Part shown: positions 45,577 through 52,781 of the stretch, in pieces
Layout of the letters: every line of letters starts with the position of its first letter
Position numbering within the stretch: the first letter of the stretch is position 1
Source of the DNA: a virus
DNA: 59,735 nt
Virus record (IMG/VR): IMGVR_UViG_3300024999_000115
Span: 1-59,735 of that record
Strand: one strand, 5' to 3'
Made by a program: the position numbers and the translations under genes
Notes under the pieces: generated by a model
Told to the model about the DNA's origin: nothing
Database searches by the model: none
The model's input: the letters and a program-made list of their open reading frames with translations, nothing else

Positions 45577-46566
45577 TTACATAAGTGTTGGAGATTGATT
45601 ATTGCCTCTTAAATTCTCTTTCTTTTGTTCTGTTTCAGATACTTTAACCGAAGAAACTCCGGCAATTATCAGGTCAAATCCTTTTTCCTTTGCCAGCGAA
45701 AACAGCTTTTTCCCTTCAACGGCCTGTGGAATGATTCCCTGGTCGTTAATAAAGAATCCCCTTGCTTCATCTTCAGTTCTGAATTTAAGAGGCTGAAATT
45801 GTTGTTCTGGTTTTTGTTCTCCTTTTTTAACATTCTTTCTGAACGCCGTTTCAATATCGGTGTCGCCGTCTTTAATTGCGGTTCCTATTCCGATTAAAAC
45901 CACTAAATCATCAGAAGTAAGGTGATCAATCGATGCTTTTCCTACTGCTCCGATTATTTCGGCCTCAGTCAATGAATAGGTGTCTTTTAGACCGTCAATT
46001 ACCTGTTTCCTTCTTGCAAGAAGTTTTGTTTTGTCGGAAACATCTCCGGTTATCTTTGCCTTTGCTTCGCCGTAAACCTTGTCAACAATAGCTTTTGGAA
46101 TTACAGAAAGAACAGCGTTACGAAGTGCAATTGAATTACCGGCATTCCCTGTTACGGTAATCATATCGTCATTCATCCTGCCGTTTTTTGTCATAATCGA
46201 CCTTTTCACTTCTACTTTAATTGCAAGGTTGTTTTCAAGGTCAAAACAAACCGCCTGACTTGTTATCTGTCTTGCATCAATACCAACTACTTTTGCTTCA
46301 ATTCTGAGGTTCCCCCAATTCTGAGCAAGTATTTTAGCAAGGTGAACCGATGGTCCAGTTATTGCTTTTCCGGCTCTCGGAACGGCATAAGTACAAGTTG
46401 CTGCCGTTTCTTTATCCATTGTCACTATTGCAATTGAATTGTCAATCGCTCTTTTAATATTCCTCGGATATGCTTTGGCTGTGCTGATTTGAATGTCAAT
46501 TGCAGCCCTGTCTTGTTGGTAAATTACTTCTGCACCAACTTCTTCAATTTTTACTAAATCTTCCAT
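45577..46566 (-). CDS. Phage recombination (annealing-type) protein
   Basis: 329 residues. The central block YAVPRAGKAITGPSVHLAKI, NWGNLRIEAKVVGIDARQIT and MITVTGNAGNSIALRNAVLS resembles a widespread phage family that sits beside exonuclease genes in a RecT/Bet-like role. No Walker motif. It ends one base before the nuclease-FtsK gene, as expected for an exonuclease/annealing pair. Exact family name not certain. Confidence 0.6.
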   Translation of the reverse strand: MEDLVKIEEVGAEVIYQQDRAAIDIQISTAKAYPRNIKRAIDNSIAIVTMDKETAATCTYAVPRAGKAITGPSVHLAKILAQNWGNLRIEAKVVGIDARQITSQAVCFDLENNLAIKVEVKRSIMTKNGRMNDDMITVTGNAGNSIALRNAVLSVIPKAIVDKVYGEAKAKITGDVSDKTKLLARRKQVIDGLKDTYSLTEAEIIGAVGKASIDHLTSDDLVVLIGIGTAIKDGDTDIETAFRKNVKKGEQKPEQQFQPLKFRTEDEARGFFINDQGIIPQAVEGKKLFSLAKEKGFDLIIAGVSSVKVSETEQKKENLRGNNQSPTLM

Positions 46567-48292: not shown

Positions 48293-48299
48293 AGTTTGC

Positions 48300-48426
48300 C
48301 CCGTATCGTGGGGCCGACGGCTTACGCTGCAAGTCTTACCTGCGGTGTAAACATTGAAATTGATTTGCCTTTTATGGCTGAACTTCTCCGCTACCCTACC
48401 TCTGCCTGTCAAAACCAAACACCCCC
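48300..48426 (-). ncRNA. ssrA: tmRNA coding piece (5' half, with tag)
   Basis: Mature 5' end GGGGGTG (48426-48420), then TTTGGTTTTGACAGG, the tmRNA 5' signature (GGGGxUG...GGnUUcGACAG). A resume codon GGC (48369-48367) opens a 15-codon tag GKSISMFTPQVRLAA ending in TAA (48324-48322); -LAA is the usual proteolysis-tag ending. A hairpin GGCCCC-ACGATAC-GGGGC follows the stop. The 5' heptamer pairs with the acceptor CACCTCC located upstream on the same strand, not downstream, so the gene is apparently permuted. The exact 3' limit of this piece is unknown. Confidence 0.75.
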
Positions 48427-48734
48427 GAATTATAAACCTTGCACACTAACCACCGTGGGTTACATAGTTGATTCAGTAGGTTTATAAACAACCGTACTAA
48501 CGCGACGGGTTAGCGACAACCGGCGATTGTTTCTTTAAAAGCAACACTCTCCTTTGTTCCTATTGCACACCCCGCCCCGAAATGCTGTTTCCGTCCCCTG
48601 TCAGTGGGTATCTCTATTAATCTGTCCTGACTGTCAAGCGTTCGCCGTTCCGCTTTGCTACTTCGGTCGTTTTTTAAGTGAACAAAAATTGCAATATCAA
48701 CAAGTGTTGCTTTCCCTTCCTTCCTTTGTGGATG

Positions 48735-48830
48735 TGGAGGTGGCGGGGATCGAACCCGCGTCCAAACAGTTTCAAATAGTTTCAACGAAATTCGTGGTAT
48801 GAAAGCAGTCCCCAGCCGTCATACCGTTTT
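48735..48830 (-). ncRNA. ssrA: tmRNA acceptor piece (3' half)
   Basis: Reads CTGTTTGGAC, T arm GCGGG-TTCGATC-CCCGC (48759-48743), then CACCTCC and discriminator A (48742-48735). The GGAC-T-arm layout is the tmRNA 3' end. CACCTCC pairs with GGGGGTG at 48426-48420 over seven positions, one G.U. CCA is not encoded. A 7-bp hairpin GGTATGA/TCATACC (48796-48825) lies near its 5' side. 308 bases (48734-48427) separate the two pieces and would be the intervening segment; I see no gene there. Confidence 0.75.
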
Positions 48831-51237: not shown

Positions 51238-51597
51238 ATGGAAACGACAAAGAATGAACGAGTAAAAAGAGTGATTGAGTTTAAGAATATCACACAGGTA
51301 GAACTTGCTAACGTACTTGGGATAAAAAAACAACTGGTTCAAAACTGGATAAGCAACTCTCAGCCGGTTCCCGACAAGTATATTTTACTCCTCATAGAGA
51401 AATATACCGACATAGATGCCCGTTGGCTGGCTACCGGGGCCGGAAGTATCGACGGTAGTATTGCATCCACCCAGGAGCAAATAAACCGCATTAAGAAGCC
51501 TCTGTTGGATATTATCGAAATGAAAGACCTAATAATAGCCGATAAAGAAAGAATGTTAGTAATGAAGGACGATATTATAAAGCTGATGAAAAAATGA
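51238..51597 (+). CDS. HTH regulator
   Basis: 119 residues. The HTH is FKNITQVELANVLGIKKQLV followed by NWISNSQPVPDKYI and IDARWLATGAGS, the same fold order as the repressor at 50008. A C-terminal coiled segment (KPLLDIIEMKDLIIADKERM). Stop overlaps the integrase start (ATGA). Confidence 0.75.
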   Translation: METTKNERVKRVIEFKNITQVELANVLGIKKQLVQNWISNSQPVPDKYILLLIEKYTDIDARWLATGAGSIDGSIASTQEQINRIKKPLLDIIEMKDLIIADKERMLVMKDDIIKLMKK

Positions 51598-52781
51598 AGT
51601 TCGAATTATTTGATTCAAGCAAACTTTCCCCTGTTGTTGGCATAATCAGAATGAGCAGAAAGAACCACAAGATTTTCCTGAAGTATTACTGTGGTTTCTC
51701 CGTCCGGCCCGACCAGTGGAACGAAAAGACTGAACGGGTGCGCGAAGTTTACGGCATACCTTTTAAAGACTACAACAATATAATAGATAAAATAGAAGCT
51801 GCGGTAAAACTTGAATTTAAAAACCGGGATTACTTTTCGATCACATCCGATTCACTCAGGCAGTTAATTGATGCAGCATTAAAAAGAAAAGTATCGTCCG
51901 GGGCCGGAAACAATACGGGTTTCATGGACTACCTGCAAAATTATATTGATACCTCTGGCGTTAAATCAGCAAAATCATTTAAAACCACAAAGGGCAAACT
52001 TCCGGCAAACATATCCTGGTATGACTTCGATTATTCGTGGTATCTGAAATTTGTTGATAAAATGGAAGCAAAAGGTCATGCTAAAAACTACATCGGGCGG
52101 CAAATAAACAACATCAAAATCATTTTAACCCGCGCATTTAAAGAAGGAAAACACCAAAACACCGAATATCTGAAATTCGCTGTACTCCGTGAAGATGTTT
52201 ATAATATCTACCTGTCGGAAGCTGAACTGATAAAAATGTACAATCTTCCTCTGGATGGATACAACGCCCATGTCCGCGATTTATTCATGCTTGGAGCATG
52301 GACGGGAATGAGAGTAAGCAATTACCTCAATATTGATTCTGATTTGAATGTTGACCTTGAAAAGAACATTATCACCGCCATTGTAAACAAAAACGGGCCA
52401 CGGGTACGGATTCCTATTCACTGGATTATTCGGGAGATTATCGAAAAGAACGGCGGCAAACTTCCAAAATCCATCAGCGAACAGAAATTGAACAAACAGA
52501 TTAAGGTTGTCGGGCGGCTGGCTGGTATTACCGAGAAAGTAATAACCGTTAAAACCATCGGCGGGAAGCGAACCGAAATAGTGAAAGACAAGTGCGATAT
52601 GATTTCTTCACACACCTGCCGCCGGAGCCTTGCTACTAACCTTTATTTAAAAGATGTTCCGCTGAAGTATATAATGAGTATCACAGGTCACAAAACGGAA
52701 GCACAAGCCCTGAAATACATCAAATCCGGCCTTGACGAAATTTACGATAAAGTTGCTGAGTTGGATTTCTGGAAGAAGTAA
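51594..52781 (+). CDS. int: Tyrosine recombinase, phage integrase
   Basis: 395 residues of the Bacteroidota integrase type: N-terminal arm-binding domain, SAM-like core-binding domain (about 105-200), catalytic domain from 205. Catalytic residues: Arg240 (WTGMRVSNYL), His340 and Arg343 (SSHTCRRS), His366 (TGHKT), nucleophile Tyr375 (ALKYIK). It integrates the phage at an att site. Translated together with the upstream HTH gene. The attP candidate lies 123-142 bases downstream. Confidence 0.92.
   Translation: MKFELFDSSKLSPVVGIIRMSRKNHKIFLKYYCGFSVRPDQWNEKTERVREVYGIPFKDYNNIIDKIEAAVKLEFKNRDYFSITSDSLRQLIDAALKRKVSSGAGNNTGFMDYLQNYIDTSGVKSAKSFKTTKGKLPANISWYDFDYSWYLKFVDKMEAKGHAKNYIGRQINNIKIILTRAFKEGKHQNTEYLKFAVLREDVYNIYLSEAELIKMYNLPLDGYNAHVRDLFMLGAWTGMRVSNYLNIDSDLNVDLEKNIITAIVNKNGPRVRIPIHWIIREIIEKNGGKLPKSISEQKLNKQIKVVGRLAGITEKVITVKTIGGKRTEIVKDKCDMISSHTCRRSLATNLYLKDVPLKYIMSITGHKTEAQALKYIKSGLDEIYDKVAELDFWKK

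Follow-up and report, generated by a model that had tools for sequence, protein, structure and literature searches.

Two-piece tmRNAs have been described from alpha- and betaproteobacteria, cyanobacteria, and some mitochondria. The bacterial forms typically retain pseudoknots 1 and 2 (PK1 and PK2), and in plastid tmRNAs pseudoknots are few or lacking (PMC3985003); in Escherichia coli, tagging requires PK1 or a hairpin substituted for it (PMC3968760). Phages carry such genes as well. ARAGORN called 53 of 133 unique phage tmRNAs two-piece, and permuted tmRNAs occur in Melnitz, whose ssrA was reported as alpha-related, and in other marine phages (PMC9004378). A reduced phage tmRNA is known from DS6A, which has a tRNA-like-domain-only (TLD-only) molecule without a tag frame (PMC4131195). 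We analyzed a permuted tmRNA gene on the minus strand (48790-48298) of IMG/VR record IMGVR_UViG_3300024999_000115, a viral sequence of 59,735 nucleotides (the window), in which an acceptor piece is followed by a spacer and a coding piece. From sequence comparison, it is highly probable that the locus is a working two-piece tmRNA gene. It belongs to a phage lineage that lacks PK1 and in which a Bacteroidota one-piece tmRNA was probably permuted independently. Like the DS6A molecule it is reduced, but it has a conserved tag. Its novelty would lie in the Bacteroidota-phage lineage and the reduced anatomy, two-piece tmRNAs in phages, including proteobacterial ones, being already known. No report of the reduced lineage was found in the literature searched, although the tmRNA database's phylum breakdown, which lay outside that search, may list some members.

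In a whole-window scan, the Rfam permuted tmRNA model (RF04321) matched the locus at 54.8 bits (E 5.8e-8), compared to a gathering score of 47 bits, and was the sole Rfam match above threshold anywhere in the window. The one-piece model RF00023 reached only 27 bits versus 47, and over the acceptor half alone rather than the full length; a one-piece reading was therefore rejected. An earlier interpretation made from the letters alone (the sequence-only reading) had proposed this covariance search, which found the permuted model above threshold and no one-piece tmRNA. The elements on which that reading was built (a T arm, CACCTCC-A, GGGGGTG, and a tag) were all located on the minus strand. The single G.U in its heptamer pairing is G3.U70 of the acceptor helix, and the gap that it placed between the acceptor strands exists but measures 309 rather than 308 nt. 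The P2 helix, which it had left unsolved, was found in two parts, proximal and distal. ARAGORN made no call on the window copy, probably because of the 309-nt spacer, and the folding z score of the whole locus (-0.35) was uninformative. The features, all on the minus strand, are as follows.

48322-48787 (minus): match to RF04321 (tmRNA_permuted) covering both pieces and the spacer; 54.8 bits, GA 47
48787-48790 (minus): distal P2 strand of the acceptor piece, UUUC, pairing with 48386-48383; from covariation and slide/shuffle controls
48763-48769 (minus): proximal P2 strand of the acceptor piece, CUGUUUG, pairing 7/7 with CAGGCAG at 48408-48402
48743-48759 (minus): T arm, GCGGG-UUCGAUC-CCCGC; from the model match, sequence, and covariation set
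48735-48742 (minus): acceptor 3' strand CACCUCC (48742-48736) and discriminator A (48735); CCA not encoded
48427-48735 (minus): stretch between the acceptor strands, 309 nt with the discriminator as first base; the longest of 33 members
48516-48530 (minus): spacer hairpin ACAAU-CGCCG-GUUGU; from the GCC-loop hairpin search
48492-48513 (minus): H-type pseudoknot-like spacer motif, CUAAC-CCGU-CGC-GUUAG-U-ACGG, 22 nt; from motif scans
48420-48426 (minus): acceptor 5' strand GGGGGUG, start of the coding piece; from RF04321 and covariation
48409-48419 (minus): D-loop region UUUGGUUUUGA; from RF04321 and family comparison
48402-48408 (minus): proximal P2 strand of the coding piece, CAGGCAG; from the pairing test
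48383-48386 (minus): distal P2 strand of the coding piece, GAAG; from covariation and slide/shuffle controls
48322-48369 (minus): tag frame GKSISMFTPQVRLAA-stop (GGC...TAA), with GGC as resume codon; from family comparison
48298-48314 (minus): hairpin GCCCC-ACGAUAC-GGGGC after the stop codon, the likely 3' end of the coding piece; from sequence

A RecT-like gene near the tmRNA (45577-46566; the RecT reading is our own, and PHROGs gives unknown function) pointed to phage L004, in which the protein is 85% identical. L004 has a permuted tmRNA according to both RF04321 (56 bits) and ARAGORN (tag GNEYQMKAAA), with a spacer unlike that of the window in both sequence and length. When IMG/VR and genome contigs were scanned with DNA patterns, about 50 distinct members with the same layout were found, 33 of which are non-redundant and were used in the pairing and tag tests. 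Most relatives were picked up by patterns that held some coding-piece positions fixed, which builds conservation into those positions. All members examined in context belong to phages or prophages, and one from a Spirochaetaceae MAG (L047) also has phage-type neighbors. Isolated phages were covered by a composite of 14 coding pieces, compared with 50,697 phage records without any match. With the window as the query, matches were mainly to T-arm-sized stretches of other tmRNAs. The direct pattern search retrieved 1 of 396 Bacteroidota genomes. Two Bacteroidota genome matches exceeded the RF04321 cutoff (G001 and G236), both in phage-like regions. No bacterial chromosome with this form as its own tmRNA was seen; negatives from the RF04321 search of the genome set are weak, as that search gave the window just 28.9 bits on the wrong span. 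Separately, several one-piece phage tmRNAs have unusually long tags of 24-33 residues (L013, L020, L021, L025, L026, and L034).

Pairing between the pieces was assessed across the 33 non-redundant members. In every one of them acceptor pair 5 is formed, as G-C (n = 19), A-U (n = 6), C-G (n = 5), or U-A (n = 3). The alanine-identity pair G3.U70 is retained in 32/33 members and the discriminator A in 31/33. For proximal P2, 169 of 231 cells were paired, compared to a shuffle mean of 132 (maximum 153) and to 82-104 in slid registers; these shuffles ignore relatedness, and the automatic anchor was misplaced in three members, which lowers the observed value. Distal P2 (UUUC/GAAG in the window, GUUC/GAAC in many members) had 89 of 104 cells paired versus a maximum of 84 in 5,000 shuffles, which likewise ignore relatedness. 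The distal register was picked after inspection of the sequences, an objection that the slid controls meet: both halves of P2 scored above all 5,000 shuffles and every slid register. Covariation of the heptamers and P2 strands among relatives, on which the sequence-only reading had agreed to stand or fall, is thus present. Taken together, the RF04321 match, the ARAGORN-called relative L004, and the covariation bear out the permuted two-piece architecture that it proposed. At the level of sequence comparison, the architecture, the pairing, the tag frame, and the spread among phages are established.

The tag frame, also predicted beforehand, lies at 48369-48322 and begins at the GGC resume codon. 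Tags range from 8 to 23 residues among members, with 15 the commonest length, and end in AA, VA, AV, or YA in all 33. Over the last five codons, mismatch by codon position was 0.37, 0.42, and 0.67. The window and L124 tags share their last ten residues (MFTPQVRLAA), and over these codons the DNA differs at four sites, all silent third positions. The conserved ends, the third-position variation, and the silent differences from L124 make it very likely that selection acts on the tag as a reading frame. A GC-rich hairpin lies 3' of the stop codon in many members, and a T run often comes after it.

Compared to other members of RF04321, the locus is alike in gene order, acceptor and T stems, G3.U70, inter-piece P2, and tag frame. 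It differs from the proteobacterial phage members of that model, which score 111-119 bits rather than 54.8. In the family, the distance from the first G (G1) to the resume codon is 57-71 nt, whereas it is 87-90 nt in the permuted copies carried by Stenotrophomonas and Alcaligenes phages; in Bacteroidota one-piece tmRNAs, the resume codon falls at about 82-98 (ARAGORN coding coordinates), which leaves room for PK1. Only 13-23 nt separate the distal P2 strand from the resume codon in family members, and PK1 does not fit in that interval. We did not count this absence against membership among two-piece tmRNAs, because the tmRNAs of plastids make do with few pseudoknots or none. It does weigh against a working tag-adding molecule, in view of the requirement for PK1 or a substitute hairpin in E. 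coli.

The assignment to a Bacteroidota phage made in the sequence-only reading also held. The best annotated terminase matches were to Croceibacter, Chryseobacterium, and Cellulophaga phages, and family members occur in a Prolixibacteraceae MAG and in a prophage of G236, a Bacteroidota genome. In the MAG, the member is on a phage-like contig, with a one-piece tmRNA elsewhere in the genome; in G236, it adjoins phage replication genes, with a one-piece tmRNA on another contig. That reading needs one correction, in that a permuted tmRNA on a phage is not new in itself: beyond Melnitz and its alpha-related ssrA, the beta model RF01850 recognizes the Stenotrophomonas and Alcaligenes phage copies (L149 and L150) at 92-94 bits. 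The Bacteroidota hosts seen for the window's family, in contrast, have one-piece tmRNA. In the window, the D-loop region TTTGGTTTTGA comes directly after GGGGGTG (48426-48420). The D loop TTTTGACAG is common to the phage family and the one-piece tmRNAs of both host genomes, and other sampled Bacteroidota one-piece genes have mostly TTCGAC forms. Bacteroidota one-piece tmRNA (e.g., L075 and L111), although not permuted, thus resembles the window form in this D loop and in its short tag and is its probable ancestor.

Acquisition of a known alpha, beta, or cyanobacterial two-piece lineage by a Bacteroidota phage would account for the identical permuted order, and RF04321 was built from those lineages. 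We nevertheless consider such a transfer quite unlikely. None of the three lineage models (RF01849, RF01850, and RF01851) matched the window at E values up to 5, the ground on which we rejected this candidate, while beta-type phage copies are readily matched by RF01850. The D loop, which recurs in the one-piece tmRNAs of two Bacteroidota hosts, and the position of the resume codon also argue against it. Because the D loop resembles that of these hosts and no lineage model matches, we infer as the simplest reading that the gene probably originated when a Bacteroidota one-piece tmRNA was permuted separately.

The spacer of the window exceeds those of the other members (17-261 nt) and contains two conserved elements. 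GCC-loop hairpins occur in 23/36 spacers versus 6 in shuffles, and in about 16/36 (e.g., L004, L015, L024, L029, and L051) a covarying one lies directly 3' of the acceptor end. The pseudoknot-like motif was found in 11/36 members; it is otherwise absent from 849 kb of sequence and occurs 0 times in reversed controls. Its second stem covaries (CCGU/ACGG, CGGU/ACCG, CAGU/ACUG, and CGGC/GCCG). Among 2.9 million viral contigs it occurs in 20, each with permuted-tmRNA surroundings. Carriers besides the window are L012, L014, L015, L017, L024, L035, L037, L041, L063, L069, and L117-L129. The long spacer and the lack of an ARAGORN call could indicate that the window copy is decaying and no longer processed, the rest of the family being functional. 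This is improbable, given that every acceptor, T, proximal P2, and distal P2 pair of the window copy is intact, that its tag shows the silent-site pattern, and that the conserved hairpin and pseudoknot motif are still in the spacer. A long spacer is also not without precedent, one published permuted tmRNA gene reaching 1152 bp for this reason (PMC11915505). As a separate observation, the spacer of L044 (3723-4244, minus strand) contains a tRNA-Met (cat).

Integrases often use ssrA 3' ends, and the window has an integrase gene roughly 3 kb away (51594-52781). The acceptor piece might thus be a host ssrA 3' end copied as attP during integration, with a decayed or unrelated fragment as the coding piece. 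The covariation of the pieces, the intact tag, and an order that is constant in dozens of phages despite varied spacers make this highly improbable, as does G236, in which the permuted gene sits in a phage replication cluster and the host ssrA on a separate contig. The attP reading was rejected on the covariation and the shared architecture.

Seven relatives (L118, L120, L121, L127, L128, L133, and L144) are elbow variants in which GGC[AG]GNN replaces the UUCRANN T loop. All seven have AG in place of GG in the D loop, and the other listed members are essentially canonical. Five of them were retrieved through the spacer motif, independently of the D or T loop, and most have an intact tag. ARAGORN also missed the elbow variants submitted to it; together with its miss of the window copy, this suggests that such genes are probably undercounted. 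On balance, we favor the view that these genes represent a further independent two-piece origin confined to phages of Bacteroidota and neighbors, with a tRNA-like domain, P2, and a tag but no PK1, and with a conserved spacer pseudoknot motif. In one group the tRNA elbow would have been rebuilt through joint change of the D loop (AG replacing GG) and the T loop (GGC[AG]G), which lie on different pieces.

Sigma-70 promoter and terminator scans of the window performed no better than shuffles. A Bacteroidota-type TAnnTTTG motif is present just upstream of the acceptor piece in ten relatives (L014, L015, L024, L029, L044, L049, L051, L052, L054, and L073) and absent from that position in the window. 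In the window, a hairpin, GGTATGA/TCATACC, lies just ahead of the acceptor piece (48825-48796, minus strand), and L035 has a counterpart with a compensatory change (GGCATGA/TCATGCC) in an equivalent place. The tRNA-like gene directly 3' of the tmRNA (48292-48211, minus strand) is odd: it has a 7-bp acceptor and a good T arm, but its anticodon arm is aberrant, and RF00005 gives it a subthreshold 26.7 bits. Mini tRNA-like elements that combine a 7-bp acceptor with a T arm and lack the anticodon arm, most of them lacking the D arm as well, were seen in the window (48981-48935, minus strand), L004 (6002-6043), L012 (195-252), and L040 (854-902). At least three lie upstream of the permuted tmRNA; the count is 4 in about 30 loci, and shuffled sets of 12 loci yielded about 0.4 each.

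If the locus functions as a two-piece tmRNA, a single precursor would contain the acceptor piece, spacer, and coding piece in that order. Host tRNA-processing enzymes would cut out the spacer: RNase P would act at GGGGGTG, and the acceptor end would be trimmed by RNase Z or exonucleases and completed by the CCA enzyme of the host. The acceptor stem and the P2 helix would keep the pieces together. Host AlaRS could then charge the molecule with alanine through G3.U70 and A73. Entry into stalled ribosomes would involve host SmpB, no SmpB gene having been found in the window; translation would then switch to GGC, and a 15-residue tag ending in RLAA would be added, directing the product to proteases of the host. 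That the RNA is processed, charged, and used with SmpB, that it tags proteins and rescues ribosomes in vivo, and that the phage benefits are all presumed from these features, and the proteolysis tagging or host control suggested in the sequence-only reading may be among its roles. Alternatively, the molecule may compete with host trans-translation, binding SmpB or entering ribosomes but tagging poorly or with an altered tag, and so dampen host tmRNA. The missing PK1 and the one-piece tmRNA already owned by both host genomes examined are consistent with such a competitor, and TLD-only molecules, such as that of mycobacteriophage DS6A, inhibit tmRNA (PMC4131195, PMC11915505). A pure decoy, however, would have no need of a tag frame under coding constraint with protease-type ends, and we regard competition as rather unlikely.

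A phage-borne two-piece lineage in a phylum whose cellular tmRNA is one-piece would add one origin of gene permutation. It would also provide a natural minimal tmRNA with which to test trans-translation without PK1, and it would open a direct way to ask why phages encode ribosome-rescue RNAs of their own whose tags differ from that of the host.
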